The notes under the pieces: model-generated
Seen by the model: only the letters and a program-made list of their open reading frames with translations
What the model was told of the DNA's origin: nothing
Database searches by the model: none
Part shown: positions 35,650-59,329 of the stretch, piece after piece
Position numbering within the stretch: position 1 is the stretch's first letter
Layout: every line of letters begins with the position of its first letter
Made by a program: the position numbers and the translations under genes
Assembly (NCBI RefSeq): GCF_010993735.1
Contig: NZ_WQNI01000001.1
Coordinates: 496,001 to 560,000, forward strand
Length of the DNA: 64,000 bases
Direction of reading: 5' to 3'
From: Chelativorans alearensis
GTDB taxonomy: Bacteria > Pseudomonadota > Alphaproteobacteria > Rhizobiales > Rhizobiaceae

Positions 35650-38600
35650 ATGCAGAACTTCAATCTTTCGCGGTGGGCGGTCACCCACCAGACGCTGGTC
35701 CTCTTCCTGATCATCGTCCTATCGCTTGGCGGCGTCTATTCCTACGCTCGTCTGGGGCGGGCGGAGGACCCGAGCTTCACCATCAAGGTGGCGGTGGTCA
35801 CCGCCGTGTGGCCGGGCGCGACGGCGGGCGAGATCCAGCGCCAGGTCGCCGACCCGATCGAGAAGACGCTGCAGGAAATCCCCTATTTCGACAAGGTCAC
35901 CACCTATTCCAAGCCCGGCTCCACCTACATGCAGGTGCAGCTTAAAGACACCACTCCACCGGGCGAGGTGGCTGACATCTGGTACCAGGTGAGGAAGCGC
36001 GTGGGCGACATCCGCTCCTCGCTTCCCTCCGATGTCATCGGCCCCTTCTTCAACGACGAGTTCGGCGACGTCGACAGCGCCCTTTATATGCTCACGGGCG
36101 AAGGCACCTCGATGCGCGACCTGAAGGATGCGGCGGAGGAAATCCGCCAGCGGCTCCTGCGGGTGCCGGATGTGGAGAAGGTCCGCTTCTATGGCGACCA
36201 GGACGAACGGATCTTCGTCGAGTTCTCCCATTCCAAGCTCGCCACGCTCGGCATCGACCCGCAGGCGATCTTCAACTCCATCGCCGCGCAGAACGCGGTA
36301 ACACCCGCCGGCGAGATCGAAACGGCGTCCGACCGGCTCTTCCTGCGCGTCGAAGGCGCGCTCAAGGGAGTGGAGGCGGTCGCGGCCGTTCCCGTCGCCG
36401 CGGGCGGCACCGTGTTCCGGCTCGGCGACATTGCCGACGTGCGGCGCGGCTATGAAGACCCGCCGACCTATACGGTGCGGCACGAAGGCCAGCCGGCGAT
36501 CGCCATCGGTGTCGTCATGGCCGAAGGCGCCAATATCCTAACGCTCGGCGAAAACCTCAGGGAAGCAATGCAGGAGGTGCGCACCGACCTGCCTGTCGGG
36601 CTCGATGTGGAGCTGGTCGCGGACCAGCCGCATGTCGTCGAGGAGTCCGTCGGCGAGTTCGTCAAGGTCTTCATGGAAGCGCTCGCCGTGGTGCTGGCGG
36701 TGAGCTTCCTTTCGCTCGGCTGGCGCACGGGCATCGTTGTGGCGCTCACCGTGCCGCTGGTGCTGGCGATCGTCATGATCGCGCTCGATCTCCTTGGAAT
36801 GAGCCTCGAGCGCATCACGCTTGGCGCCCTCATCATCGCGCTCGGGCTGCTCGTCGACGACGCCATCATCGCCGTCGAGATGATGGTGGTGAAGATGGAG
36901 CAGGGGTTCGACCGGCTGAAGGCGGCGACATTTGCTTGGACCTCGACGGCCTTCCCGATGCTCACCGGCACGCTGGTAACCGCTGCCGGTTTCCTGCCGG
37001 TCGGCTTTGCCCAGTCGACGGCCGGCGAATATGCCGGCGGCATCTTCTGGGTGGTGACCATCGCGCTCGTTGCGTCCTGGTTCGTGGCGGTGATCTTCAC
37101 GCCCTATCTCGGCGTCAAGCTCCTGCCGAACTTCCACAAGGTGAAGGCGGCCGGCGAAGGCGGGCATCACGACATCTACGATACGCGCCCCTATCACGCG
37201 CTACGCTCGATGATCGACTGGTGCATCTCCTGGCGTTGGCTCGTCATCGCCGCGGTCATCGGCCTGTTCGCCACCTCGATCTGGGCCTTTGGCTTCGTGC
37301 AGCAACAGTTCTTCCCAACCTCGCCACGGCCCGAGCTGATGGTCGAGATCCGCCTGCCCGAGGGCGCCCCGTTCAAGGCGACGGAAGCCGCCGCGCGCGA
37401 GATGGAAAAGGTTGTCGCAACGGACGAGGAGGTGCTGACCTACGCCTCCTATACGGGTGCCGGCGCGCCGCGCTGGTTCCTCGCCTCGAACCCTGAACTG
37501 CCCAAGCCGAACTACGCGATCCTGGTCATGTATACGGAGGATGCGGCAGCGCGCGACCGGGTGAAGGCGCGGCTGCAGAACTTCGTGGACGAAGGCGGCC
37601 TGCCGCAAGCGCGCGTGCGCGTGACCGAGCTCGTTTTCGGCCCGCCGGTGGGCTTCCCCGTCCAGTTCCGTGTCATCGGGCCGGACCCGCTCGAGGTGCG
37701 CCGCATCGCCTATCAGGTGCGCGACATCGTAGCCGAGAACCCGCGGGCGCTCGATCCCAATCTTGACTGGAACGAGCAGGCGAAGTCGATCCGCCTGGAG
37801 GTCGACCAGGACCGTGCCCGTGCGCTGGGCCTCACGCGGCAGGACATCGGCCGCACACTGCAGACGCTGCTTTCCGGCTTCACCGTGACATCGGTGCGCG
37901 ACGGTATCGAGGTGGTCGGCGTGGTTGCCCGCGCCGTCGAGGAAGAACGCCTCGACGTGGCACATCTCGGCGACCTCACCATCGCCACGCGCGGCGGTGC
38001 GCCGGTGCCGCTGTCTCAAGTTGCGCGCGTCGTCTACGGCCACGAGGAGCCGATCCTGTGGCGGCAGAACCGCGACATGCTGATCACCGTGCGCGCCGAC
38101 GTGCCGGCCGGTGTGCAGCCGCCCGACGTTTCGGCGGAGATCTGGCCGGCTCTGCAGCCGTTGATCGAGGAGTTGCCCGTCGGCTATCGCATCGAGATGG
38201 GCGGTTCCATCGAAGAAAGCGCCAAGGCGAACGCGGCCCTCTTCGAGGTCTTCCCCTTCATGGCGCTTGCCATGCTGACGATCCTGATGATCCAGCTACA
38301 GAGCTTCTCGCGACTGGCGCTCGTCTTCGCCACCGCGCCGCTCGGCCTCATCGGCGCTACCCTCGGCCTCCTGGTCTTCAACCAGCCCTTCGGCTTCGTC
38401 GCGCTCCTCGGCCTCATCGCGCTCGCCGGCATGATCATGCGCAACACGGTGATCCTCGTCGACCAGATCAAGCACGACCTCGACGAAGGCAAGCCGGAGT
38501 GGGAAGCCATCATCGAAGCGACGGTGCGGCGGTCACGGCCAGTGGTGTTGACTGCGCTCGCGGCAATTCTCGCCATGGTGCCCCTGTCGCAAAACGTGTT

Positions 38601-38784
38601 CTGGGGGCCGATGGCCTTCGCCATCATGGGCGGGCTTGCGGTGGCGACGGTGCTCACGATCCTGTTCGTCCCAGCGCTCTATGCCGCCTTCTATCGGGTT
38701 CGGCGACCGGACGTTCTGTCGCCCGCCGACGAGGAAGACGTCCAGCATCCACTGCCCCTCCCTCTTCCTCAGGCGGCGGAGTAG
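35650..38784 (+). CDS. RND family efflux transporter permease
   Basis: 1044-residue inner-membrane proton-driven exporter of the AcrB/MexF superfamily. Twelve helices in the usual 1+5 / 1+5 layout with two large periplasmic loops. The proton-relay acids are in helix 4 (GLLVDDAIIAVEMMVVKME). Also typical: SLGGVYSYARLGRAEDPSF at the start and PLGLIGATLGLLVFNQPFG in the second half. The RAEDPSF variant and short loops place it among the HAE1-like pumps paired with lipoprotein adaptors. An intrinsic terminator lies 116 bp downstream. Confidence 0.92.
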   Translation: MQNFNLSRWAVTHQTLVLFLIIVLSLGGVYSYARLGRAEDPSFTIKVAVVTAVWPGATAGEIQRQVADPIEKTLQEIPYFDKVTTYSKPGSTYMQVQLKDTTPPGEVADIWYQVRKRVGDIRSSLPSDVIGPFFNDEFGDVDSALYMLTGEGTSMRDLKDAAEEIRQRLLRVPDVEKVRFYGDQDERIFVEFSHSKLATLGIDPQAIFNSIAAQNAVTPAGEIETASDRLFLRVEGALKGVEAVAAVPVAAGGTVFRLGDIADVRRGYEDPPTYTVRHEGQPAIAIGVVMAEGANILTLGENLREAMQEVRTDLPVGLDVELVADQPHVVEESVGEFVKVFMEALAVVLAVSFLSLGWRTGIVVALTVPLVLAIVMIALDLLGMSLERITLGALIIALGLLVDDAIIAVEMMVVKMEQGFDRLKAATFAWTSTAFPMLTGTLVTAAGFLPVGFAQSTAGEYAGGIFWVVTIALVASWFVAVIFTPYLGVKLLPNFHKVKAAGEGGHHDIYDTRPYHALRSMIDWCISWRWLVIAAVIGLFATSIWAFGFVQQQFFPTSPRPELMVEIRLPEGAPFKATEAAAREMEKVVATDEEVLTYASYTGAGAPRWFLASNPELPKPNYAILVMYTEDAAARDRVKARLQNFVDEGGLPQARVRVTELVFGPPVGFPVQFRVIGPDPLEVRRIAYQVRDIVAENPRALDPNLDWNEQAKSIRLEVDQDRARALGLTRQDIGRTLQTLLSGFTVTSVRDGIEVVGVVARAVEEERLDVAHLGDLTIATRGGAPVPLSQVARVVYGHEEPILWRQNRDMLITVRADVPAGVQPPDVSAEIWPALQPLIEELPVGYRIEMGGSIEESAKANAALFEVFPFMALAMLTILMIQLQSFSRLALVFATAPLGLIGATLGLLVFNQPFGFVALLGLIALAGMIMRNTVILVDQIKHDLDEGKPEWEAIIEATVRRSRPVVLTALAAILAMVPLSQNVFWGPMAFAIMGGLAVATVLTILFVPALYAAFYRVRRPDVLSPADEEDVQHPLPLPLPQAAE

Positions 38785-41028: not shown

Positions 41029-41661
41029 ATGGCCGAGAGAGGTCGCCCACGCAGCTTCGACCGCGCCGCCGCCTTGCGGCAGGCCATGGAGGTGTTTTGG
41101 GCCAAAGGCTATGACGGCGCCTCGCTGTCCGATCTGACGGCGGCGATGGGCATCGGTTCGCCCAGCCTTTATGCCGCCTTCGGTTCGAAGGAGGCTCTGT
41201 TCCGGGAGGCTGTCGCGCTCTTCGAGACGGAAGGCACCGAAATATGGAGCGTGATCCCCGAGGCCTCGACCGCGTACGAGGCATTCGAACGCTTCCTTGT
41301 CGCAACCGCCAGAGCCTTCACACGGCCCGGACAGCCCGCCGGTTGCCTGATCGTGCTCAGTGCGCTCAACGCAACCGACGCCAATGCGAATGTCTGCCGG
41401 GAACTGCGGGACAAGCGTGCGGCGAATGTCGCGACGTTGCGCGACCGGCTGGAGCGCGCCGTGCGGGAGGGAGAATTGCCCGAAGGCTTGGACTGCCTTG
41501 CCGTCGCGTCGTTTTATGCAACGGTCCAGCAAGGCATGTCGATCCAGGCGCGTGACGGTGCCTCGTACGAGACGCTGCTTTCCGTCGCGGCTTGCGCCAT
41601 GGCCGCCTGGGACGGGCTGGCCGCAACGGCGCGGGCCATGCCCCGCCTATCGGTCCCATAG
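41029..41661 (+). CDS. TetR family regulator divergent from the SDR gene
   Basis: 210 residues, HTH at ~10-55 (AALRQAMEVFWAKGYDG, MGIGSPSLYAAFGSKEALF). This lineage of TetR (FWxKGYxxxS, SPSLYAAFGSK) usually controls an adjacent SDR or similar oxidoreductase. Start at 41029 after GAGG; the frame extends upstream into the operator region but without a ribosome site. The last 15 bp overlap the convergent response regulator gene. Confidence 0.88.
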   Translation: MAERGRPRSFDRAAALRQAMEVFWAKGYDGASLSDLTAAMGIGSPSLYAAFGSKEALFREAVALFETEGTEIWSVIPEASTAYEAFERFLVATARAFTRPGQPAGCLIVLSALNATDANANVCRELRDKRAANVATLRDRLERAVREGELPEGLDCLAVASFYATVQQGMSIQARDGASYETLLSVAACAMAAWDGLAATARAMPRLSVP

Positions 41662-42612
41662 CACGCGTACCGACATGGTGGCCGCCGCGGTGCGGTTTTC
41701 CACGCCGAGCTTGTTGAAGATCTGCTCCAGATGCTTGTTCACCGTGCGCGGGGAGAGGTCGAGGATCTCGGCGATCTCCTTGTTCGACTTTCCGTGCGTG
41801 ATCCACAGAAGCACCTCGGCCGCGCGGAGTGACAGGTCGAAGGCAGCCGCAAGCCGCTCCTCGTCCGTGCCTGCCTCGCGGTCGATCAAGCGGATCAGGC
41901 GTTCCGCCCCGCCGACACCGCCGACGATGCGGCATTCCACCTTTTTGCCGTTGCGGCTGAGAATGTACGGTTCGGTCCGGCCCGGCTTCTGGGAGAGGAG
42001 CCAATCGGTGACCTCCCATGGCAGGCGGCCGCCCTCCTCCACCGCGACCCCGCATTTCAGGAGCAGCTCGCTAGCCTGCGGCGTCGCCCACAGGACAGTG
42101 CCCCGATTGTCGGTGACGACGATGCGCCGGCCGGTGCTGTCGAGCGCCTGGCGCGCGGAGCGGGCGCGGCGGGCATTCGCCAGATGCACCCGCATGCGCG
42201 CCAGAAGCTCGACGATCGGCACCGGCTTGACCACGAAATCCACCCCGCCGGAGGCGAGCGCGTTGACCACGTGCTCGCTTTCGCCGAAGCCGGTCATGAA
42301 GATGACGGGGATGTCGGCCATGCCCATCTCCGTCTTGAGGATGCGGCAGGTCTCGAAGCCATCGATGCCGGGCATCTTGGCGTCCATCAGGATGATGTCC
42401 GGCCCGATCTCCTGGGCTATGTTGAGTGCCGCACGCCCGCTTGTCGCCACCACCACCTTCATGCCCTCCAGCCCCAGCGCGTCTGTAAGCATGCCGAGCG
42501 CATCGGGCGAATCGTCCACCACCAGCACGACAGGTGGCGCCGAGGCGGCGGCGTTCACGCCCATTCCGGCTGCTCCCTTCGCATATGCATAGCCATGAAA
42601 GTCTCCATCCAT
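41647..42612 (-). CDS. LuxR-type response regulator of the symporter-kinase system
   Basis: 321 residues: receiver domain (~residues 25-145; VVLVVDDSPDALGML, phosphoacceptor Asp in DIILMDAKMPG, Lys in FVVKPVP), a middle sensor-like stretch (~155-250), and a C-terminal GerE helix-turn-helix (ITHGKSNKEIAEILDLSPRT, then VNKHLEQIFNKLG). The ATG at 42612 overlaps the kinase stop (ATGA), so the pair is co-translated. Probable target: the divergent urea/amide transporter operon. An ATG 48 bp further upstream is inside the kinase and unlikely. Confidence 0.88.
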   Translation of the reverse strand: MDGDFHGYAYAKGAAGMGVNAAASAPPVVLVVDDSPDALGMLTDALGLEGMKVVVATSGRAALNIAQEIGPDIILMDAKMPGIDGFETCRILKTEMGMADIPVIFMTGFGESEHVVNALASGGVDFVVKPVPIVELLARMRVHLANARRARSARQALDSTGRRIVVTDNRGTVLWATPQASELLLKCGVAVEEGGRLPWEVTDWLLSQKPGRTEPYILSRNGKKVECRIVGGVGGAERLIRLIDREAGTDEERLAAAFDLSLRAAEVLLWITHGKSNKEIAEILDLSPRTVNKHLEQIFNKLGVENRTAAATMSVRVLWDR

Positions 42613-45600
42613 CACATGCCCTCGCCGCTCTCGGCCAGCGGCCGCTCGTGATACGTCCATTCGATGCCGAGCGCCGAGCCGAGCTGTTCCATGAGGTCGT
42701 CGACACTGAACGGCTTGACGAGATAGCCGTCATGCGCGCGGCGGTATTCGGGCAGGTTGCGCTCGTTGCCCGCGTCGGCGGAAATCATGATGATCGGCAG
42801 GTTGGGATGGAGATGGCTGCGAACCTCCTGCGCCACCCGCCAACCCGAGGCGCCGGGCATGGCGACGTCGAGAATGAGCACGTCCGGCCGCGCCTCGGCA
42901 AGCGCGGCAAGGCAGGTGGTGCCGTCCGGCACGGCGGTGACCGCAAAGCCTAGCGGCTCGAGGACGTCTCCGATGAGGGCGCGCTGGGCGGGATCGTCGT
43001 CAGCGATCAGCACCTTGAGCGCCCTCCCCTTTATGCCGGCAATGGCCGCCGCCGGCGGTTTCTGCTCGTCGGGCCGTGTGGCGGCGCTGAGCATGAGCCG
43101 CACGGTGAACGTCGTGCCCCGCCCCCGTTCCGATTTCACGCTTAGGTCCCCGCCCATGATCTCCACCAGAAGCTTGGTGATCGTGAGGCCGAGGCCGGTA
43201 CCGGGCGGGCTGACGCCGCCCGTGCCCTCTATCCTCTCGAAGGGCAGGAAGATGCGGTCGATGTCTTCGGCCGCGATGCCGACGCCCGTATCCTCAATCT
43301 CGAAAGTGGCGATCTGGCTGCGGTAGGTGACGCGGAAGGAGACCTTGTCGCGTTCGGTGAACTTCACCGCGTTGGACAAGAGGTTGATGAGGATCTGCCG
43401 CAACCTCTTCTCGTCCGTGTAGACGTATTCGGGAATGTAGGATCCCGGCTCGAAGACGAAGCCGATGCCCTTCTCCTGCGCCTGCAGCGAGAACATGTCG
43501 ACGAGCTGGTCGAGATAGGGGCGAAGTGCGGTCTTGTCCCGATAGATCTGCAGGCGGCCTGCCTCGATCTTGGAGATGTCGAGAAGCCCCTCGATCATTC
43601 CCGCCAGATGCTCGCCGGAGCGCTTGATGGTGCGGGCGGCGTTGCCGACGATCTGGGGCGTGGGGTCGTGGCGCTCAAGGAGCTGCGCATAGCCGAGGAT
43701 GGAGTTGAGCGGCGTGCGCAGCTCGTGGCTCAGACCCACGATGTATTTGCTCTTGGCAAGGTTGGCCGATTCGGCCGCCTCCTTTGCCTTCTGAAGCTGC
43801 CGGTCCGTCTCCTCGTGCGCCTCGATCTCCTCCATTAAGAGCGTCGTGTGGCGCCGTGCCTCGTCCTCGGCGAAGACCCGGCTTTCATGGGCGAGCACGA
43901 AGAGCCAGACCATGATCGCGGCAATGACGAAGATGATGGCGAAAAGCCGCAGGAACATGGGGAAGACGAGGTCGGGCGGCAGGCCGCCGCCCACGGTCGA
44001 CTGGTAGTAGACCACCGAGAGCACCAGCGCGATCAGCGCCGTGACCATGGTGAGGATGCCGAGATAGCTGCCGATGCGCGAGCCGACGAGGTCGGCGATA
44101 CGCGGCGGGAAGACGGCGCGGGCGAAACCGCCGATCTGCTCCGACAGCCTTGCGCCCTCCTTGCAGCGGTCGCCGCAGCGGGCATCGAGCGAACAGCACA
44201 GCGAGCAGATGGGGCCACTGTAGATTGGGCAAGCGGCCATGTCCTCCGGCTCGAAGCTGTGCTCGCAGATGCAGCACTGGATAGTGGCGTGGCCGGAAGG
44301 CAGATGCGAGGTGCGCGCCAGATAGTAGCGCCCGCGCGTGGCGATGGCGATGACCGGCGCAAGCAGGAAAGCGGCGGCGATGGCGACATGGGCGTAAAGC
44401 GCTGCGGCGACAGCGCCGAACAGGCCGAGATAGGACATCAACGCCAGCAGGATGGCGATGGCGGCCGCGCCGAAGCCGACGGGGTTGATGTCGTAGAGGT
44501 GAGCGCGCTTGAATTCGATGTGGCGCGGCGACAGGCCGAGCGGCTTGTTGACCGCGAGGTCGGCGACGATGGCGGCAAGCCACGCGCCGGCGATCATCGC
44601 GTAGAGGCCCAGGATCTGCTCCAGCGCCTTGTAGATGCCGAACTGCATGAGAAGCAGCCCGATCACCACGTTGAAGACCACCCAGACCACGCGACCGGGA
44701 TGGCTGTGGGTGAGGCGGGAGAAGAAATTCGACCAGGCGATGGACCCAGCATAGGTGTTGGTGACGTTGATCTTGACCTGACACAGGACAATGAAGATGC
44801 CCGTCAGCCCCAGGGCGAGCTCGGGGCTCGCCACCATCTGCTGGAAGACCGACAGGTACATGCGCGTCGGCTCGGCCGCGTCATAAAAGGCGACGCCGCT
44901 CTGGAACGCGTAGTAGGCGAGGAAGGAGCCGGCCAGCATCTTCATCGCGCCCAGCACCACCCACCCGGGGCCGGCGGCGATGAGCGCACTCCACCAGGCG
45001 ATACGGTTGGCGTGTAGCTTGCGCGGCAGGAAGCGGAGATAATCGACCTGCTCGCCGATCTGCGCGACAACGGAGAAGACGACCGCCGAGGCGGCGCCGA
45101 ACATGGCAAGCGAGAAGGTGCCGTCCACGGGCCCACGAAGCCCCGTGTACCCGGTCCACCCGCGCATCGCCGGCACGCTTTGGGTGGCGATATAGAGGAA
45201 GGGCAGGAGCTGCAGCACGATCCAGAAGGGCTGCGTCCAGGCCTGAAAGCGGTTGATGAAGGTGATGCCGTGGATGACCAGCGGGATGACGAGGAGTGCG
45301 CTGATGAGGTAGCCCACGGCGAGCGGGATGCCGAAGCATAGCTCCAGCGCCGTCGCCATGATCGCCGCTTCGATGGAAAAGAAGATGAAGGTGAAGCTCG
45401 CATAGATGAGCGAGGTGACGGTGGAGCCGAGATAGCCGAAGCCAGCCCCGCGCGTCAAAAGGTCGATGTCCACGCCATATTTGGCCGAATTGTAGCAGAT
45501 CGGGATTCCCATGAGGAACATGACGAGGCAGCTCGAAAGAACCGCCCACAAGGTCGTCTCGAACCCATAGTTGAGGGTGAGCGTCCCGCCGATAGCCTCG

Positions 45601-45767
45601 AGCGCCAGGAACGAAACCGCGCCGATGGCCGTGTTGGCGATGCGCCAGGCCGGCCAGCGGCGGACCCTGGTGGCCGTGAAGCGCAGGGCGAAGTCTTCGA
45701 GCGTCTGATTGGCCACCCAGACATTGTAGGTGCGGCGCACGCGGGTGACCTTGAAACCCGCGGTCAT
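42612..45767 (-). CDS. Hybrid histidine kinase with N-terminal NCS1-type permease domain
   Basis: 1051 residues from the ATG at 45767 (a TTG six codons upstream is possible). Residues ~1-485: permease-like domain with about 12 helices, resembling purine/cytosine/allantoin permeases (NTAIGAVSFLALEAIGG, LCQVKINVTNTYAGSIAW). Residues 498-535: nine cysteines (CCICEH...CSLCC...CGDRC). Two more helices (~567-587, 605-625), a coiled coil, HisKA (SHELRTPLNSILGYAQ, His681), ATPase (NLLSNAVKF, EDTGVGI, GTGLGLTI) and a receiver (LIADDDP, Asp967, Lys1018). Lies 320 bp from the divergent urea/amide transporter operon, suggesting substrate sensing by a transport-like domain. Confidence 0.9.
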   Translation of the reverse strand: MTAGFKVTRVRRTYNVWVANQTLEDFALRFTATRVRRWPAWRIANTAIGAVSFLALEAIGGTLTLNYGFETTLWAVLSSCLVMFLMGIPICYNSAKYGVDIDLLTRGAGFGYLGSTVTSLIYASFTFIFFSIEAAIMATALELCFGIPLAVGYLISALLVIPLVIHGITFINRFQAWTQPFWIVLQLLPFLYIATQSVPAMRGWTGYTGLRGPVDGTFSLAMFGAASAVVFSVVAQIGEQVDYLRFLPRKLHANRIAWWSALIAAGPGWVVLGAMKMLAGSFLAYYAFQSGVAFYDAAEPTRMYLSVFQQMVASPELALGLTGIFIVLCQVKINVTNTYAGSIAWSNFFSRLTHSHPGRVVWVVFNVVIGLLLMQFGIYKALEQILGLYAMIAGAWLAAIVADLAVNKPLGLSPRHIEFKRAHLYDINPVGFGAAAIAILLALMSYLGLFGAVAAALYAHVAIAAAFLLAPVIAIATRGRYYLARTSHLPSGHATIQCCICEHSFEPEDMAACPIYSGPICSLCCSLDARCGDRCKEGARLSEQIGGFARAVFPPRIADLVGSRIGSYLGILTMVTALIALVLSVVYYQSTVGGGLPPDLVFPMFLRLFAIIFVIAAIMVWLFVLAHESRVFAEDEARRHTTLLMEEIEAHEETDRQLQKAKEAAESANLAKSKYIVGLSHELRTPLNSILGYAQLLERHDPTPQIVGNAARTIKRSGEHLAGMIEGLLDISKIEAGRLQIYRDKTALRPYLDQLVDMFSLQAQEKGIGFVFEPGSYIPEYVYTDEKRLRQILINLLSNAVKFTERDKVSFRVTYRSQIATFEIEDTGVGIAAEDIDRIFLPFERIEGTGGVSPPGTGLGLTITKLLVEIMGGDLSVKSERGRGTTFTVRLMLSAATRPDEQKPPAAAIAGIKGRALKVLIADDDPAQRALIGDVLEPLGFAVTAVPDGTTCLAALAEARPDVLILDVAMPGASGWRVAQEVRSHLHPNLPIIMISADAGNERNLPEYRRAHDGYLVKPFSVDDLMEQLGSALGIEWTYHERPLAESGEGM

Positions 45768-46087
45768 GTCCGCCTTGCCCCCCAAACGACTTGCTTCACA
45801 TGCATCGGTCTACTCCACACGCAACCGATGCCCTCTCAAGCGTCCCTGCCCCGCCCGCGCGTTCCTTAGAGCGCCGGCAGCACAACACTGCGGCGCCTGG
45901 GTTATTTTCCGTACCGAAGCCGGTGCGCGGAGTTCCCCTTCGTTATTTGCCGCAGCTTAGGGGGAAAAATGCACCGCGGGAATACGTCAAATGCCCCGTT
46001 GATAGGCAGCGGCCTTAAATGCCCAAAATTGCGGCAGTTGGCGATAGGCCAGCAGGTTTGAGATCAGGCAAGCGAGGCACAAGCATC
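45768..46087. promoter_or_regulatory. Divergent promoter region of kinase and urea/amide operon
   Basis: 320 bp without a gene. It contains an inverted pair CTGCGGC and GCCGCAG about 60 bp apart in its middle and a related GCGGCAG near 46030. These could be contacts for the LuxR-type regulator, but spacing is loose. No convincing sigma-54 or sigma-70 boxes were found. An in-frame ATG at 46019 starts no plausible protein extension. Confidence 0.4.
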
Positions 46088-47350
46088 ATGAGCGACGACA
46101 CCCCTCGGAAGAGTCCCATCGCAACGCGCCGGCAGGTTCTTGCCGGCATCAGCGCACTGCCCTTCATGGGCATGCTGGGCGGCAAAGTGAACGCGGCCGA
46201 CTATCCGACGGCGGAGGTGAACACCACCGGGCTTGCCGTCACCGACGACAAGGTGACGGTGGGCATCCTGCACTCCGTCACCGGCACCATGGCGATTTCG
46301 GAGACCGGCTCGGTACAGGCGGAAAAGCTCGCCATCAAGCAGATCAACGATATGGGCGGCGTGCTCGGAAGGCAGATCGACTTCATCCAGGAGGACGGCG
46401 CCTCCGACTGGCCGACCTTCGCCGAGAAGGCCAAGAAGCTTCTCGTGCAGGACAAGGTGGCCTCGGTGATGGGCTGCTGGACATCGGCCTCGCGCAAGGC
46501 GGTGCTGCCGGTCTTCGAGCAGTATAACGGCATGCTCTACTACCCGACCTTCTACGAAGGCCTCGAGGAGAGCCCGAACGTCATCTACACCGGCCAGGAA
46601 GCGACACAGCAGATCATCGCCGGTATCGACTGGGTGGCGCAGAACAAGGGCGCCAAGAGCTTCTATCTTCTGGGCTCCGATTACATCTGGCCGCGCACCT
46701 CCAACAAGATCGCCCGCAAGCACATCGATAAGCTGGGACTGGAAGTGGTGGGCGAGGAGTACTACCCACTCGGCCACACCCAGTTCAACTCGGTGATCAA
46801 CAAGATCAAGCTGAGGAAGCCCGACGTCATCTACGCCATCGTCGTCGGCGGCTCCAACGTCGCCTTCTACAAGCAGCTCAAGGCCGCCGGCATAGACATG
46901 ACCAAGGAGAAGCCGCTGCTCCTCACCATCTCGGTGACGGAGGACGAGATCCTCGGCATCGGCGGCGAGAACATCGTCGGCGCCTATGCCTGCATGAAAT
47001 ACTTCCAGAGCCTGCCGAACGACAACAATGCCGAGTTCGTCAAAGCCTTCAAGGAGATGTGGGGCGACGAGATCGTCATCGGCGATGTCACCCAGGCAGC
47101 CTATCTGGGGCCGTGGCTGTGGAAGATGGCGGTGGAGAAGGCCGGCAGTTTCGACATCGACAAGGTGCGCGAGGCCTCGCCGGGAATCGAGTTCACCAAG
47201 GCGCCGGAAGGCTACGTCCGTATCCACGAGAACCACCATCTGTGGTCGAAGACGCGCGTCGGCCATGCGCTCGACGACGGGCAATACGAGGTGGTCTTCG
47301 AGACGGAGGATCTCGTGGAGCCCGACCCCTTCCCCGAAGGCTACCAATAA
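46088..47350 (+). CDS. urtA: Urea/short-chain amide ABC transporter, binding protein
   Basis: 420 residues. Twin-arginine-like signal (ATRRQVLAGISALPFMG). The mature part is UrtA/FmdD-like: VTVGILHSVTGTMAISETGS, INDMGGVLGRQIDFIQEDGA, WPTFAEKAKKLL and MGCWTSASRKAVLPVFE. Where cyanobacterial UrtA has FYPVQYEGLECS this protein has YYPTFYEGLEES. Because formamidase follows, a short-chain amide is as likely as urea. First gene of a six-to-seven-gene operon; a palindromic repeat separates it from the permeases. Confidence 0.88.
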   Translation: MSDDTPRKSPIATRRQVLAGISALPFMGMLGGKVNAADYPTAEVNTTGLAVTDDKVTVGILHSVTGTMAISETGSVQAEKLAIKQINDMGGVLGRQIDFIQEDGASDWPTFAEKAKKLLVQDKVASVMGCWTSASRKAVLPVFEQYNGMLYYPTFYEGLEESPNVIYTGQEATQQIIAGIDWVAQNKGAKSFYLLGSDYIWPRTSNKIARKHIDKLGLEVVGEEYYPLGHTQFNSVINKIKLRKPDVIYAIVVGGSNVAFYKQLKAAGIDMTKEKPLLLTISVTEDEILGIGGENIVGAYACMKYFQSLPNDNNAEFVKAFKEMWGDEIVIGDVTQAAYLGPWLWKMAVEKAGSFDIDKVREASPGIEFTKAPEGYVRIHENHHLWSKTRVGHALDDGQYEVVFETEDLVEPDPFPEGYQ

Positions 47351-47569: not shown

Positions 47570-48496
47570 ATGATCGGCGACTACACCCTTGTCGAATTCA
47601 GCTCCATCCTGGCGATGCAGGGTTTCGCCGGGCTTATCCTCTTCTCCGTCTTCGTGCTGATGGCCCTGGGGCTTGCCATCATCTTCGGCCAGATGGGCGT
47701 CATCAACATGGCCCATGGCGAGTTCATGATCCTTGGCGCCTATGTCACCTGGCTCTGCTCGCACTTCGTGACGGCCTATGTGCCGGCGTTGTTTCCCATC
47801 TACTTCTTCATCGCCATGGCGCTCGCCTTTCTCGCCTCGGGCGCGCTCGGCATGCTGGTCGAATGGGCGATGATCCGGCATCTCTACAAGCGCCCGCTCG
47901 ACACGCTGCTCGCCACCTGGGGCCTTAGCCTCATCCTGCAGCAGCTCTATCGCTCGGTCTTCGGCGCACGCGAAGTCGGCGTCAGCCTGCCCGACTGGAT
48001 GATGGGGTCCATCGCGCTGACCGACATCATCGAGGTGCCGATCAACGGCATCTTCGTCATGGTGCTGACGATGCTTATTTCCCTTGGTGTCTTCATCCTG
48101 ATGTTCCGTTCCGCGTGGGGCAGGCGCGTGCGCGCGGTTGTGCAGAACCGCGCGATGGCCGGTGCCGTCGGCATCAACACCAAGAAGGTGGACCGCGTGA
48201 CCTTCGGCCTCGGCTGCGGGGTGGCGGGCGTTGCCGGCTCCGCCTTCACCATGATCGGCTCCACCGGGCCGACGGCCGGGCAGCTCTACATCGTCGACAC
48301 CTTCCTTGTCGTCGTCTTCGGCGGCGCGGCCAGCCTCATCGGCACCATCGCCTCCGCCTTCACCATCAGCCAGGCCCAGTCGACCATGGAGTTCTTCATG
48401 TCGGGCTCGATGGCCAAGGTGCTCACGCTTCTGACCGTGGTGGGCATCCTGATGCTGCGGCCCGAAGGCCTCTTCACACTCAAGATGCGCCGCTGA
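47570..48496 (+). CDS. urtB: Urea/amide ABC transporter permease 1
   Basis: 308-residue branched-chain-amino-acid-type permease with about 8 helices. Motifs: INMAHGEFMILGAYVTW, LDTLLATWGLSLILQQLYRS, FGGAASLIGTIASAF and a C-terminal LRPEGLFTLKMRR. Length equals that of the short UrtB/FmdE form without the periplasmic N-terminal extension. Followed by the second permease after 13 bp. Confidence 0.88.
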   Translation: MIGDYTLVEFSSILAMQGFAGLILFSVFVLMALGLAIIFGQMGVINMAHGEFMILGAYVTWLCSHFVTAYVPALFPIYFFIAMALAFLASGALGMLVEWAMIRHLYKRPLDTLLATWGLSLILQQLYRSVFGAREVGVSLPDWMMGSIALTDIIEVPINGIFVMVLTMLISLGVFILMFRSAWGRRVRAVVQNRAMAGAVGINTKKVDRVTFGLGCGVAGVAGSAFTMIGSTGPTAGQLYIVDTFLVVVFGGAASLIGTIASAFTISQAQSTMEFFMSGSMAKVLTLLTVVGILMLRPEGLFTLKMRR

Positions 48497-48509: not shown

Positions 48510-49649
48510 ATGAACGCTACTCTCTACACCCGGCGCGAATGGATAGCCCTTGCCGTCCTGGCCGCGCTCATCCTGATCGTCTTCCCCGCCACCATGGACA
48601 TCTTCCGCCTCAACCTCGTCGGCAAGTATCTCACCTATGCCTTCGTTGCCGCGGGGTTGGTTCTGTGCTGGGGGCACGGGGGGATCCTTAGCCTCGGCCA
48701 GGGCATTTTCTTCGGCCTCGGCGGCTACTGCATGGCCATGTTCCTGAAGCTGGAGGCTTCCAGCCCGGAAAACACGGCCATCCAGTCCACGCCCGGCATT
48801 CCCGATTTCATGGACTGGAACCAGGTGACCGAACTCCCCTTCTGGTGGATCCCCTTCAAGTCCTTCCCCTTCACGCTCGCCGCCGTCATCGTCGTGCCGG
48901 TCGTCTTCGCCTACATCATCGGCGCGGCCATGTTCAAAAGGCGGGTAGGCGGCGTCTATTTCGCCATTATCACCCAGGCGATCGCCGCCATCCTCACCAT
49001 CCTCATCATCGGTCAGCAGGGCTACACCGGCGGGGTCAACGGCATCACCGACCTGCGCACCCTGCTCGGCTGGGACATCCGCACCGACAGTGCCAAGTTC
49101 ATCCTCTACTTCGTCAACGCCGCCCTCCTCATCGTAGTGCTCCTCCTCGGTCAGGCGGTGCGGGTCTCAAAGTTCGGCCGGCTCTTGATCGCCATGCGCG
49201 ACAAGGAGGACCGGGTGCGTTTCTCCGGCTACAGCGTGGCCGATTTCAAGATCTTCATCTTCTGCCTGGCGGCCGCCTTCTCCGCCATCGGCGGAGCGAT
49301 GTTCACGCTCCAGGTCGGCTTCATGTCGCCCTCCTTCGTTGGCATCGTGCCGTCCATCGAAATGGTCATCTTCGCCGCCGTCGGCGGACGCTTGTCGCTC
49401 TTCGGCGCGGTCTACGGCGCGCTCATCGTCAACTGGGCAAAGACCAGCTTCTCCGAGAGCTTTCCGGAACTCTGGCTGTTCGCCATGGGCGGCCTTTTCA
49501 TCGCCGTCGTGATGGCCTTCCCCAACGGGCTAGCCGGGCTCTTCCGCTCCCATGTGGAGCCGCTTTTGGCAAAGCTCACGCGGAAGTCGCCTCCGCCGCC
49601 CGCTCCCGACGCCACACCGGCCGAAGCCGTCAAACTGGCCGCTGAATAG
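48510..49649 (+). CDS. urtC: Urea/amide ABC transporter permease 2
   Basis: 379-residue LivM-type permease, about 9-10 helices. CWGHGGILSLGQGIFFGLGGY near residue 50 and GVNGITDLRTLLGWDIRT are UrtC-like. SFVGIVPSIEMVIFAAVGGR is the permease-ATPase coupling region. A ~30-residue Pro/Ala-rich tail ends the protein. Next gene follows after 11 bp. Confidence 0.88.
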   Translation: MNATLYTRREWIALAVLAALILIVFPATMDIFRLNLVGKYLTYAFVAAGLVLCWGHGGILSLGQGIFFGLGGYCMAMFLKLEASSPENTAIQSTPGIPDFMDWNQVTELPFWWIPFKSFPFTLAAVIVVPVVFAYIIGAAMFKRRVGGVYFAIITQAIAAILTILIIGQQGYTGGVNGITDLRTLLGWDIRTDSAKFILYFVNAALLIVVLLLGQAVRVSKFGRLLIAMRDKEDRVRFSGYSVADFKIFIFCLAAAFSAIGGAMFTLQVGFMSPSFVGIVPSIEMVIFAAVGGRLSLFGAVYGALIVNWAKTSFSESFPELWLFAMGGLFIAVVMAFPNGLAGLFRSHVEPLLAKLTRKSPPPPAPDATPAEAVKLAAE

Positions 49650-49660
49650 GAAGCTCACCC

Positions 49661-50425
49661 ATGCAACAGGCCAATCCAGCCTCCACACCCAGGGACTTCC
49701 TTCTCTCGGTCGAAGGCCTCACCGTCTCCTTCGACGGGTTCAAGGCGGTCAACGACCTTTCCTTCTACGTCGACGAGAACGAAATCCGCGTCATCATCGG
49801 CCCGAACGGCGCCGGCAAGACCACCGTGCTCGACTTGATCTGCGGACGCACGACGGCAACCGAAGGCTCGATCCGCTTCCGCGACAAGGAGCTGACGCGG
49901 ATGAAGGAGCACGAGATCGTCCACGCCGGCGTGGGGCGGAAATTCCAGAACCCGTCGATCTACGAGGATCTGACCGTCTTCGAGAACCTCGAGCTCTCCT
50001 TCCCGCGCGGCCGCGGCGTCTTCGGCGCGCTCGCCTTCAAGCGCGACAAGGAAGTGATCGACCGCGTCGAGGAGATCGCCGAGATGATCTTCCTCAGGGA
50101 CCAGCTCAAGACGGAAGCGGCGATCCTGAGCCACGGCCAGAAGCAGTGGCTGGAGATCGGCATGCTCCTGATCCAGAGCCCGGAACTCCTGATGCTCGAC
50201 GAGCCGGTGGCCGGCATGAGCGTGTCGGAGCGCGTGAAGACGGCGGAACTCCTGCACCAGATCATCAAGGATCATTCGGTGATCGTGATCGAGCACGACA
50301 TGAAATTCGTCCAGGACATCGCCCACCGCGTCACCGTGATGCACCAGGGCAAGGTCCTCTCCGAGGGCTCGATGGACCACGTCCAGCACGACCCGAAGGT
50401 CATCGAAGTCTATCTGGGCCACTAG
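49661..50425 (+). CDS. urtD: Urea/amide ABC transporter ATP-binding protein 1
   Basis: 254-residue ATPase. Walker A GPNGAGKTT, signature variant LSHGQKQWLE in place of LSGGQ (usual for UrtD), Walker B LLMLDEPVAGMS, switch His in IVIEHDMKFV. VGRKFQNPSIYEDLTVFENLEL is UrtD-typical. 9 bp to the next gene. Confidence 0.9.
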   Translation: MQQANPASTPRDFLLSVEGLTVSFDGFKAVNDLSFYVDENEIRVIIGPNGAGKTTVLDLICGRTTATEGSIRFRDKELTRMKEHEIVHAGVGRKFQNPSIYEDLTVFENLELSFPRGRGVFGALAFKRDKEVIDRVEEIAEMIFLRDQLKTEAAILSHGQKQWLEIGMLLIQSPELLMLDEPVAGMSVSERVKTAELLHQIIKDHSVIVIEHDMKFVQDIAHRVTVMHQGKVLSEGSMDHVQHDPKVIEVYLGH

Positions 50426-50434
50426 GAGGCGGAC

Positions 50435-51124
50435 ATGCTCAACGTCGACAATCTCAGCGTCTCCTACGGCCAGAGCGAGGTGATCCACTCCGTCTCCTTC
50501 GGCGTGAAGCCCGGTGAAATCGTCGCCATCATGGGGCGCAACGGCATGGGCAAGACCACGCTCATGAAGTCGCTCATCGGCATGCTGCCGGCGCAGGCGG
50601 GCGGCATCAGCATCGACGGCGATGCGATCGAAGCTTCGGAAAGCTACGAGCGGGTCGCAAAGGGCCTCGCCTATGTGCCGCAGGGGCGGATGGTCTTCTC
50701 CACGATGACGGTGAAGGAGAACATCGAGACCGGCCTTACCGTGACCGGCGAAAGCACGGTGCCGGGCGACATCTACGAGCTGTTCCCCGTGCTTCTCGAA
50801 ATGAAGAGCCGGCGCGGCGGCAATCTTTCCGGCGGCCAGCAGCAGCAGCTCGCCATCGCCCGCGCGCTTGCCTCCCGGCCCAAGGTGCTGCTGCTCGACG
50901 AGCCGACCGAGGGCATCCAGCCCTCCATCATCAAGGAGATGGCACGCACGCTCCGCCGCATCCGCGATGAGCGCGGCCTTTCCATCGTCGTCTCCGAGCA
51001 GGTTTTAAGCTTCGCCCTCGACATCGCCGACCGTGTTCTCGTCATCGAGAACGGCGAATTCGTCCACGAGAGCCCGCGCGAAGGCATCGACGAGAAGAAA
51101 GTCGCCGCCTTCCTGTCCGTCTGA
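50435..51124 (+). CDS. urtE: Urea/amide ABC transporter ATP-binding protein 2
   Basis: 229-residue LivF-type ATPase. Walker A GRNGMGKTT, signature LSGGQQQQLAIARAL, Walker B LLLDEPTEGIQPS, switch region VVSEQVLSFALD. YVPQGRMVFSTMTVKENIETG is characteristic of UrtE. Completes the ABC transporter; the amidase gene follows after 33 bp. Confidence 0.9.
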   Translation: MLNVDNLSVSYGQSEVIHSVSFGVKPGEIVAIMGRNGMGKTTLMKSLIGMLPAQAGGISIDGDAIEASESYERVAKGLAYVPQGRMVFSTMTVKENIETGLTVTGESTVPGDIYELFPVLLEMKSRRGGNLSGGQQQQLAIARALASRPKVLLLDEPTEGIQPSIIKEMARTLRRIRDERGLSIVVSEQVLSFALDIADRVLVIENGEFVHESPREGIDEKKVAAFLSV

Positions 51125-51157: not shown

Positions 51158-52390
51158 ATGCCCGACACACTGATCAAGGTCGATCTCACCACCTCGCCCT
51201 ACGAGAACGAGAAGATCCACAACCGTTGGCATCCCGACATCCCCATGGCCTGCTGGGTAGAGCCGGGCGACGATTTCCGGGTCGAGACCTATGACTGGAC
51301 GGGCGGGCAGATCAAGAACGACGACGATGCGGCAGACGTCCGCGATGTCGACCTGAACCAGGTGCACTTCCTGTCCGGCCCCATCGGTGTCAAGGGCGCC
51401 GAGCCGGGCGATCTCCTCGTCGTCGACATCCTCGACATCGGCGCCTTCGACAATTCGCTCTGGGGTTTCAACGGCTTCTTTTCGAAGAAGAACGGCGGCG
51501 GCTTCCTGACCGAGCATTTCCCCGAGGCGCAGAAATCCATCTGGGATTTCCACGGCATGTTCACCTCCTCCCGCCACGTGCCGGGGGTGAAATATGCCGG
51601 CCTCATCCATCCGGGCCTCATCGGCTGCCTACCGGACAGGAAGATGCTGGAGATGTGGAACACGCGCGAGCAGGCACTGTTCGATACCGATCCGGAGCGC
51701 GTGCCGGCGCTTGCCACGCTCCCCAACGGCGACGAGACGGCGCATATGGGTATGCTCAAGGGCGAGGCGCGCGACAAGGCAGCCGCAGAGGGCGCGCGCA
51801 CCGTGCCGCCGCGCGAACATGGCGGCAACTGCGACATTAAGGATCTGAGCCGCGGCTCGAAGATCTACTTCCCCGTCTATGTGGACGGCGCCGGCCTCTC
51901 CATGGGCGACCTGCATTTCTCCCAGGGCGACGGCGAAATCACCTTCTGCGGCGCCATCGAGATGGCCGGCTGGCTGCACATCAAGGTTTCGCTCCTGAAA
52001 GGCGGCATGGCCAAGTACGGCATCAAGAACCCGATCTTCCGCCCCTCCCCCATCACGCCGAAATACGACGACTACCTGATCTTCGAGGGGATCTCGGTCG
52101 ACGAGGCCGGCAAGCAGCACTATCTCGATGTGCACATCGCCTACCGCCAGGCCTGCCTCAACGCCATCGAGTACCTCACCAAGTTCGGCTACTCCAGGGC
52201 TCAGGCCTACGCCATCCTCGGCACCGCCCCGGTGCAAGGGCACATTTCCGGCGTCGTCGACATCCCCAACGCCTGCGCCACGCTGTGGCTGCCCACCGAC
52301 ATCTTCGAGTTCGATATCATGCCGGGGAACGCCGGGCCGGTGAAGCACCTCGACGGCTCGGTCTCCGTACCGCTCGCACCGGATCTGTGA
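51158..52390 (+). CDS. fmdA: Formamidase/acetamidase
   Basis: 410-residue FmdA_AmdA family amidase that hydrolyses formamide or related short amides to ammonia and the acid. Family blocks: FHGMFTSSRHVPGVKYAGL, HPGLIGCLPDRKML, EHGGNCDIKDLSRGSKIYFP and GDLHFSQGDGEITFCGAIEM with metal-binding His/Asp residues. Its place after the ABC transporter is the FmdA-FmdDEF arrangement known from methylotrophs, so the operon imports and hydrolyses amides as nitrogen source. GAGGAG ribosome site. Confidence 0.92.
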   Translation: MPDTLIKVDLTTSPYENEKIHNRWHPDIPMACWVEPGDDFRVETYDWTGGQIKNDDDAADVRDVDLNQVHFLSGPIGVKGAEPGDLLVVDILDIGAFDNSLWGFNGFFSKKNGGGFLTEHFPEAQKSIWDFHGMFTSSRHVPGVKYAGLIHPGLIGCLPDRKMLEMWNTREQALFDTDPERVPALATLPNGDETAHMGMLKGEARDKAAAEGARTVPPREHGGNCDIKDLSRGSKIYFPVYVDGAGLSMGDLHFSQGDGEITFCGAIEMAGWLHIKVSLLKGGMAKYGIKNPIFRPSPITPKYDDYLIFEGISVDEAGKQHYLDVHIAYRQACLNAIEYLTKFGYSRAQAYAILGTAPVQGHISGVVDIPNACATLWLPTDIFEFDIMPGNAGPVKHLDGSVSVPLAPDL

Positions 52391-52400
52391 GGCTTCTGCG

Positions 52401-52736
52401 ATGCCCTTCTACGACTACGAATGCGGGGAGTGCGGTGTCTTCACCGCGCTCCGCCCCATGGCCAAGGCGGCCGAGCCCTGCGACTGCCCCGAATGCGGCG
52501 CGTCCGCCCCGCGTGTCATCTTGCGCACGCCCAACTTTGCCCTCATGGAGCCGGGAATGCGTGCCGCGCACGCCACCAACGAGCGCTCCGCCCATAACCC
52601 GAAGAGCACCAGGGGTGGCCAAGCACACGGGCCGGGGTGCTCGTGCTGTGCGGGAAGACGTCCGTCAAGAACCGTCAGCCAGCCAGACGGCGCCAAGGCC
52701 TTTCCGTCGGCAAGGCCGTGGATGATCAGCCACTAG
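52401..52736 (+). CDS. fmdB: FmdB family zinc-ribbon protein
   Basis: 111 residues. N-terminal zinc ribbon: MPFYDYECGECGVF and CDCPECGASAP supply four cysteines. The Arg/Ser-rich C-terminal part has a second cluster (GPGCSCC). FmdB is thought to regulate or assist formamidase expression; its mode of action is not known. 10 bp downstream of fmdA, last gene of the operon. Confidence 0.85.
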   Translation: MPFYDYECGECGVFTALRPMAKAAEPCDCPECGASAPRVILRTPNFALMEPGMRAAHATNERSAHNPKSTRGGQAHGPGCSCCAGRRPSRTVSQPDGAKAFPSARPWMISH

Positions 52737-54664: not shown

Positions 54665-55324
54665 TCATGCCGGAGGATAGCCGCTTTCCATCGCATCGCG
54701 CAGCACCATGGCGGCCTGGGTACGGTTACTCACGTCAAGTTTGGCGAGAATGCGCGTCATGTGGTGCTTGACCGTCTTTTCCTGAAGGTCGAGCCGTCGC
54801 GCGACATGCTTATTGCTCAACCCGCTTGCCACCAGCCTCAGGATCTCCTTTTCCCGCATCGTGAGGGTGGCAAGCGGGTTGGTCATGGGCGGCAGACCCG
54901 ATCGCGCGGAGAGGTCCGAGAGCAGTCGTGCCGACAAACTGGGCGAAACATAACTTTCGCCTGCCGCAACCGCGCGCAGGATTTCTGCAAGCGCCCGAGA
55001 GCCGACGCCTTTCAGCACATAGCCCTTGGCGCCACTGTTCAACGCCGTTGCGACATCCTCGGTTCTTTCCGAGACGGTCAGCAGGAGGATCTTCTGGCCG
55101 GGGTGGCGAGCGAGAATCGCCTCGATCGCGTTCAAGCCTCCGCCGGGCATCGATATGTCCAGCAAGACGATTTCGGGACGCTTCGCATCGGTTATTCGCA
55201 ACGCGTCCTCCTTCGTGGCCCCTTCGCCGACGATCTCAAAGCCGCCGCTTTCCGACAGGCTGCGTGTCACCCCCTCCCTGAACAGCGGGTGGTCATCGAT
55301 CACCGCAATCCGAATTGCTGCCAT
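54665..55324 (-). CDS. NarL/FixJ-type response regulator
   Basis: 219 residues. Receiver (IAVIDDHPLFREGV, phosphoacceptor in IVLLDISMPGG, Lys in GYVLKG) and GerE helix-turn-helix (LVASGLSNKHVARRLDLQ, KTVKHHMTRILAKLDV). Start at the ATG at 55324, overlapping the kinase stop (ATGA). Forms a two-component pair with that kinase. Target genes are unknown; the adjacent acidic exported proteins are candidates. Confidence 0.9.
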   Translation of the reverse strand: MAAIRIAVIDDHPLFREGVTRSLSESGGFEIVGEGATKEDALRITDAKRPEIVLLDISMPGGGLNAIEAILARHPGQKILLLTVSERTEDVATALNSGAKGYVLKGVGSRALAEILRAVAAGESYVSPSLSARLLSDLSARSGLPPMTNPLATLTMREKEILRLVASGLSNKHVARRLDLQEKTVKHHMTRILAKLDVSNRTQAAMVLRDAMESGYPPA

Positions 55325-59106: not shown

Positions 59107-59329
59107 CAAATGACGCTCAGATACGGAAAATTCCACACCCCCCACCCTACCGATTGGGCCTTCTGCGCGTGCCCGAACAGACAGAATAACCCGGCCAGCT
59201 TACGGAATTCTGGGTGAGAAGCTTCGATTTTTCCTAAAATGATCGAGGTCTGGTTGACAAAAGTGAGATGAGCGGCCGCGCGTCATGGTTGTCTCATCCT
59301 TGGTTGGCAAAAGCCCTCACCCACCGGTA

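Follow-up and report, generated by a model that had tools for sequence, protein, structure and literature searches.

The stretch of DNA analysed here (the window: 64,000 nucleotides of contig NZ_WQNI01000001.1 of Chelativorans alearensis) encodes on its minus strand, at 42612–45767, a hybrid histidine kinase of 1051 amino acids (aa) whose input domain is, on bridging sequences and structural modelling, a diverged relative of the NCS1 transporters. The gene is divergent from a urtABCDE-fmdA-fmdB cluster. Its predicted structure and its genomic company make it probable that the product is a sensor kinase for urea and short-chain amides that controls this divergent uptake and hydrolysis operon.

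Architecture of the kinase

The kinase frame coincided exactly with 42612–45767 and started from an ATG at 45767, with a TTG at 45785 as an alternative start upstream. Frame 1 of the plus strand over the same positions was interrupted by stops, and a chance frame was excluded because the kinase is conserved across genomes. From the N-terminus, the protein comprised an NCS1-related transporter domain of about 12 helices (residues 1–486; 44310–45767), an eight-cysteine module (residues 498–535; 44163–44276), two further membrane helices running into a signalling helix (residues ~564–634; 43866–44078; supported by hydropathy and by AlphaFold helices 564–593 and 598–649), HisKA (residues 674–737; 43557–43748), HATPase_c (residues 784–893; 43089–43418) and a receiver (Response_reg; residues 919–1028; 42684–43013), all on the minus strand. 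The last three domains each scored above their Pfam cut-offs. Kinase catalytic motifs were found at SHELRTP (680; containing the phospho-acceptor), NLLSNAVKF (795), DTGVGI (826) and GTGLGL (856), and receiver motifs at IADDD (921), LDVAMP (966) and KPF (1018). With HisKA, HATPase and receiver carrying these motifs, the window protein is a hybrid histidine kinase. An earlier note, made from the sequence of the window, had described this order of parts, without giving a strand, in one continuous frame with all catalytic kinase motifs intact; the open reading frame (ORF), Pfam and AlphaFold analyses agreed with the former and the motif positions with the latter.

Relationship of the input domain to NCS1 transporters

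The AlphaFold model of residues 1–650, computed from a 37-row alignment (pLDDT 79.9, pTM 0.81), showed membrane helices, a poorly modelled loop at ~480–540 and then two more long helices. When this model was compared with the PDB by Foldseek, CodB ranked first (E 3.1e-9; TM-score by target 0.75) and Mhp1 second (E 6.0e-9; TM-score by target 0.65), and other families appeared only at 6.1e-6 or weaker. Profile–profile comparison with hhalign gave 98.3% for the input domain against NCS1 over 403 columns, vs. 0.5% against SSS and 0.1% against BCCT, the control of NCS1 against SSS giving 9.9%; profile rows were kept if they matched at least five sister rows (17 of 25 for SSS, 21 of 25 for BCCT). 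SSS and BCCT, as other LeuT-fold families, were ruled out by these values as the identity of the input domain. An SSF (SLC5) identity was likewise rejected (no Pfam SSF match; hhalign 0.5%).

Direct sequence searches were negative: NCBIfam gave no match and Pfam no model over cut-off for residues 1–650, and PDB sequence searches with the N-terminal domain returned no match. A weak DUF6526 match covered the last two helices of the window kinase (E 0.038) and recurred in 17 of 37 relatives (best E 0.0043). The bridge to the family was provided by stand-alone permeases. P0002, encoded beside Klebsiella urease genes, scored 38.1 bits against PF02133 (cut-off 23.5) and aligned with the kinase over 519 columns at 40% identity (E 4e-134). 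It was the only one of five near stand-alone homologues to match PF02133, its four sister permeases giving no match, and a more distant permease at locus L254 matched PF02133 at 36.4 bits and the kinase at E 2e-35. A below-cut-off NCS1 match at L144 read by eye as an AraC-like frame and was discarded.

The initial case against NCS1, built on the lack of a direct Pfam, NCBIfam or PDB sequence match, was overturned by these bridging homologues and by the structure. Because the two together settle the kinship despite the direct PF02133 miss, the input domain is, on sequence and model, a diverged NCS1 relative and not a typical purine/cytosine permease. The earlier note had spoken of an NCS1-type, purine/cytosine-permease-like domain: its NCS1 part held when the N-terminus was checked against solved structures, with CodB and Mhp1 nearest and the sequence bridges in agreement, and its purine/cytosine part did not, the residues of the pocket and the sodium site being different.

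Pocket, sodium site and cysteine module

The pocket was mapped by alignment on CodB, using the CodB residues described in PMC9379551. The kinases retained the Arg of transmembrane helix (TM) 6, as did 22 of 22 NCS1 rows, and the TM8 Tyr of CodB, which only 4 of the 22 NCS1 rows carry. The aromatic residues that sandwich the base in CodB were replaced, W108 in TM3 by Phe or Leu and F204 in TM6 by Val or Leu (the latter in 37 of 37 kinases), whereas the NCS1 rows had Trp in TM3 in 22 of 22 and Phe, Trp or Tyr in TM6 in 21 of 22. A small, non-aromatic ligand would suit such a pocket better than a nucleobase.

The TM8 threonines of the CodB Na2 site were absent from the kinases, the alignment being gapped at the site. 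All 37 kinases carried a Lys (K332) in this region, its exact position uncertain owing to the gap, and 13 distant stand-alone relatives had Lys or Arg in the same part of TM8. In CbrA, a Lys in the Na2 site is described as linked to proton-driven transport (PMC13022988). The TM8 motif QxKINVTNxYSGS was shared by all five near stand-alone permeases and the TM6 motif QIGEQxDYLRF by four of them; looser TM8 and TM6 patterns held in 163 and 152, respectively, of 179 kinases.

Cysteines 498, 501, 513, 521, 524, 525, 531 and 535 were invariant in 37 of 37 alignment rows. With spacing allowed to vary, the pattern CX2C-X11-C-X7-C-X2-CC-X5-C-X3-C was present in 179 of 179 kinase frames, a count that excludes fragment L058 and short duplicate stretches. 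A profile of the module gave 58 strong matches in 398 genomes, every one inside a kinase frame, and three weak ones besides (E 0.0026 to 0.0096). The stand-alone permeases had a shorter C-terminal version, degenerate in Arthrobacter and absent in L254. The module is likely to be a metal-binding site.

Linkage to urea and amide genes

Linkage was scored by tblastn in fetched stretches of up to 20 kb; the gene caller, which gave antisense frames in places, was set aside. In a sample of 398 genomes drawn evenly from the phylum, 56 of 58 kinase loci had urtA, fmdA, amiE or ureC in the fetched stretch (urtA in 47, fmdA in 38, amiE in 20 and ureC in 12), and the two misses (L313 and L336) were truncated by contig ends. 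The count was unchanged at stricter bit scores. A divergent urtA lay within 1.5 kb of the kinase start in 40 of these loci, and a regulator followed the kinase in 56. Corresponding figures were 75 of 80 for loci from named genomes, where four misses (L109, L118, L131 and L136) came from short stretches and the fifth, L133, from a long stretch, and 43 of 49 for loci from the same family, where the misses were five intact kinases and fragment L058.

Some kinases directly adjoined urease genes with no urtA next door (e.g., L259, L263, L302, L307 and L324). In a quickly built tree of 77 kinases, reduced from 179 by removal of near-copies, the amide label needed eight changes, at least five of them forced by well-supported branches; it needed six once unlabelled rows were dropped. 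On this tree the sensor has changed partners several times, moving between gene sets of the urease and of the formamidase type, and urea and small amides would therefore be favoured as shared ligands. The association with urt and fmd genes on which the earlier note had relied was thus found in most homologues, extending to urease and amidase genes as well; its reading needs amending to give urea and urease the same weight as amides.

A candidate operator between kinase and urtA

Regions between kinase and urtA were collected where a divergent urtA lay 60–900 bases away (132 found, 78 non-redundant kept). The dyad TACGT-N7-CGTAT occurred in 46 of the 78, and the best dyad of one shuffled set of approximately the same dinucleotide content in five. 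At least 11 of 14 consensus bases were matched in 63 of 78 regions vs. 2 of 78 after one plain shuffle, the consensus being derived from the same regions. The 600 bases upstream of 180 kinases, or 108 kb in all, held 90 sites matching at least 12 (spread over 79 of the loci), vs. 38 in the other 3.4 Mb of the loci. The full operator-like form was a palindrome, ATACGTCA-N2-TGACGTAT, and a paralogous kinase of the window's genome (L050) had it upstream with 13 of 14 bases. That paralog belongs to a second kinase–regulator pair (G000:C32), which has urease genes and another urt cluster as neighbours.

The candidate operator of the window, ATACGTCAAATGCCCCGTTGAT at 45982–46003, kept the left half of the palindrome and had a changed right half; the left half was kept and the right half different in 13 of 13 listed loci of the window's clade and its near-copies. 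A scan of the window's own genome, allowing up to three mismatches, hit 37 places vs. 119 for the reversed pattern and was uninformative except for the site of the paralogous kinase. The co-encoded regulator may be the protein that binds the palindrome.

Stand-alone homologues

Stand-alone permeases were 39–43% identical to the sensor domain. Thirteen records were examined, 12 of them annotated; they made up about two-thirds of 19 plasmid records at least 60% identical to P0002, plus one from Methylovirgula (49%). Ten of the 12 annotated records had urease genes, formamidase or amidase nearby: six had urease genes (two Klebsiella and four Acinetobacter, near-copies within each genus), three lay near a formamidase (Moraxella, Tsukamurella and Methylovirgula) and one stood beside an aliphatic amidase (Arthrobacter U41). 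On the Methylovirgula plasmid, a single stretch held formamidase, kinase, regulator, stand-alone permease and aliphatic amidase. The L254 permease adjoined a carbon-nitrogen hydrolase, an AmiC-like binding protein and an AmiR-ANTAR protein.

In Klebsiella, a "cytosine permease" 40% identical to the sensor domain followed ureG (L349:8944–10551 and L356:8001–9608) and is a candidate urea permease. Because rpsU and rpoD stand beside the urease genes in these records, the urease–permease place is probably chromosomal despite the plasmid label. In a tree with a long-branched outgroup, 79 kinases were split from the stand-alone permeases with an SH-aLRT support of 99%, consistent with a single fusion at the origin of the kinases.

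Two other stand-alone branches were seen. One (L339, L344–L347) had an Arg near the sodium site and adjoined hydantoinase/oxoprolinase, carboxyltransferase or LamB/YcsF genes (Pfam of representatives), a context that suggests transport of 5-oxoproline. A third branch (L337, L338, L340, L342) had a regulator of about 225 aa upstream, of LuxR type by Pfam in L338.

Distribution

Within the family, 45 of 151 genomes carried the kinase, and the sample of 398 genomes held its 58 loci in 52 genomes. Among the matches listed from named genomes, the pattern was confirmed in at least 595 of 598 stretches; the 80 stretches kept were from Proteobacteria by title, except one titled "bacterium". Plasmid records with a match numbered 528 (342 from Klebsiella), a few of these being stand-alone permeases, and the kinase itself was present on Klebsiella and Sinorhizobium plasmids; the matching plasmid records included ones from Sinorhizobium meliloti RU11/001 and S. 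fredii NGR234. Names given to it in plasmid and Escherichia coli records included ATP-binding protein, response regulator, ArcB and hybrid kinase. At four loci (L056, L057, L257 and L258), a short form of the kinase, about 885 aa long and lacking the receiver, lay about 5 kb from fmdA and adjoined a protein of 406–416 aa; in L056 and L258 the sequence of this neighbour resembles a receiver protein.

Proposed function and alternatives

In the mechanism that we consider probable, binding of urea or a small amide, with or without transport, would change the conformation of the transporter domain, and this change would pass through the eight-cysteine module and the two extra helices to the kinase. 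The phosphoryl group would then reach the LuxR-type regulator, either via the kinase's own receiver or directly. The regulator would bind the site between kinase and urtA and presumably switch on, rather than repress, the divergent urtABCDE-fmdAB genes, whose products would take up and hydrolyse the compound. A wider reading, which we hold somewhat less firmly and favour by a small degree, is that the NCS1 superfamily includes a branch for urea and short-chain amides that has so far gone unrecognised, made up of the sensor domain and its stand-alone homologues, with Lys or Arg replacing the sodium site and no nucleobase sandwich. This branch would have given the urea permeases of urease operons (Klebsiella and Acinetobacter) and, by a single fusion, a dedicated sensor kinase of Proteobacteria that acts on a conserved palindromic operator.

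Several observations weigh against the proposed mechanism. PF02133 itself matched neither the window kinase nor any of the 37 members at E up to 10. Five intact kinases of the family sample (L022, L028, L032, L034 and L035) had no urea or amide gene in the fetched stretch, nor had L133, which lies on a long contig, and linkage as such cannot separate urea from amides. Two of the 12 annotated stand-alone records, from Streptomyces angustmyceticus and Arthrobacter NicSoilB11, had no urea or amide neighbour. The operator of the window amounts to one intact half, the full palindrome being absent from the window at up to three mismatches, and no site matching at least 11 bases was found within 500 bases upstream in the ten urease-adjacent and four short-kinase loci listed.

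The permease domain could be a pure receptor that binds its ligand without transport, for which we see a chance somewhat short of even. This has a precedent in Ks-Amt5, which is described as recruiting an Amt module as a sensor (PMC5764959) and as sensing instead of transporting (PMC12918730), and since the kinases group apart from the stand-alone permeases, transport could have been lost once; however, no pocket residue marking such a loss was identified, the two groups not having been compared systematically for residues of this kind. Slightly less probable still is a true transceptor, in which the domain transports urea or amide at a useful rate and its transport cycle is read out by the kinase, a mode proposed for histidine in CbrA. 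The sensing by transport that the earlier note suggested is thus a hypothesis, binding without transport being about as likely. The domain's pocket-region motifs are mostly common to the stand-alone homologues, which are presumably transporters, and CbrA, with a Lys in its Na2 site, is reported to import histidine with protons (PMC13022988), a Lys occurring in the same region here. On the other hand, an ABC uptake system already stands beside the kinase at most loci, leaving a second transporter unneeded, and the placement of K332 is uncertain where the TM8 alignment is gapped at the sodium site.

It is unlikely that the kinase responds to another signal, such as ammonium or pH from urea hydrolysis, or redox or metal through the cysteine module, with the permease domain as a mere membrane anchor. 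Eight invariant cysteines do resemble a metal or redox site, and ammonia is released by hydrolysis of urea and amides; but the strong conservation of the transporter-domain motifs would be unnecessary in an anchor, and the shorter cysteine tail of the stand-alone permeases indicates that this feature is not specific to signalling. Accidental linkage, with the kinase hitch-hiking on a mobile urea/amide island while controlling something else, might be read from the many plasmid copies and the few copies that stand alone, but is very improbable given that the pair adjoins different gene sets (urt-fmd, urt-urease, urease and fmdA) in Alpha-, Beta- and Gammaproteobacteria (by record titles) and that the operator-like site is enriched upstream of the kinase.

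Neighbouring genes in the window

The urea/amide uptake and hydrolysis operon that the earlier note had placed beside the kinase was recovered from ORFs and Pfam, on the plus strand: a urtA-like periplasmic binding protein (46088–47350; Peripla_BP_5, E 7e-129), urtB-like and urtC-like ABC permeases (47570–48496 and 48510–49649; both BPD_transp_2), urtD-like and urtE-like ABC ATPases (49661–50425, ABC_tran and BCA_ABC_TP_C; 50435–51124, ABC_tran), the formamidase/acetamidase FmdA (51158–52390; FmdA_AmdA, E 3e-183) and an FmdB-like zinc-ribbon protein (52401–52736; Zn_ribbon_8). The urtA ORF opens at 46019; a start at 46088, with a twin-arginine-like signal, seems likelier. On the minus strand, the response regulator (receiver and LuxR/GerE helix-turn-helix by Pfam on the nearly identical stretch 41647–42615) occupies 41647–42612, and its ATG at 42612 shares one base with the kinase stop (TGATG); the longest regulator ORF runs from 42660.

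Elsewhere in the window were an AcrB-type efflux pump (35650–38784; Pfam), a two-component pair of NarL-like regulator and histidine kinase (54665–56853; by eye) and a protein reading like a GGDEF-EAL signalling protein (57124–59145; by eye).

Comparison with known systems

Among the matches listed, a literature search gave no paper on an NCS1-type kinase, in line with the earlier note, which knew of no characterised member; this is a weak negative, some queries matching many more papers than were listed. GrtK of Burkholderia glumae was considered as a published member and set apart by its described architecture, a kinase of 427 aa whose PilS-like domain has six helices. Among the matches listed, the search likewise found no dedicated membrane receptor for urea or small amides. 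The transporter-fused kinases that were found carry SLC5 (CbrA, CrbS and RpuS) or Amt (Ks-Amt5) domains, and the NCS1-type version extends this set by one more transporter family and by urea or small amides as a common nutrient. The kinase is a common one, occurring in 52 of the 398 genomes sampled from the phylum; its operator-like element is ready for reporter use, and the finding marks the permease next to urease in Klebsiella as a candidate for urea transport.

The urtABCDE–formamidase cluster has been described as "UTS" in K. pneumoniae CG307 (PMC13060141) and as "operon III" in E. guguanensis (PMC13296017), both of the same operon type as the urt-fmd cluster of the window. For operon III, genes for a hybrid kinase and a LuxR regulator are mentioned in text and figure legend (PMC13296017), and a kinase and regulator beside urt genes are given as annotation (PMC13296017, PMC2907700); the terms "histidine kinase" and "two-component" are absent from the main text of PMC13060141. 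Neither identification of the permease domain nor a test of the kinase was found in the available parts of PMC13060141 and PMC13296017.

CodB and Mhp1, the solved structures nearest to the input-domain model, differ from the window protein in having no fusion to a kinase. The stand-alone "cytosine/allantoin permeases", such as that after ureG in Klebsiella, also lack the kinase and have a shorter cysteine tail, most motifs of the sensor domain being common to both. Close parallels are the SLC5/STAC kinases: CbrA is described as a LeuT-fold membrane domain of transporter type fused to a histidine kinase in nutrient sensing (PMC13022988), and CbrA, CrbS and RpuS are also treated in PMC9100948 and PMC5715377. 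They share with the window kinase the fusion of a LeuT-fold transporter domain to a histidine kinase, but their domain is SLC5 and that of the window kinase NCS1-related (hhalign 98.3% vs. 0.5%). Their linker is STAC; that of the window kinase consists of the eight-cysteine module and two helices, and no STAC domain was recognised in it, residues 486–670 giving no match over cut-off in a Pfam search not confirmed to include a STAC model. Unlike theirs, the ligand of the window kinase is probably urea or an amide. Ks-Amt5, the ammonium sensor kinase of the anammox bacterium Kuenenia (PMC5764959), is similar in that a kinase concerned with a nitrogen compound has recruited an uptake transporter as its input domain; it is described as consisting of an Amt module and a kinase only (PMC5764959), whereas the kinase of the window is NCS1-related, hybrid and widespread in Proteobacteria.

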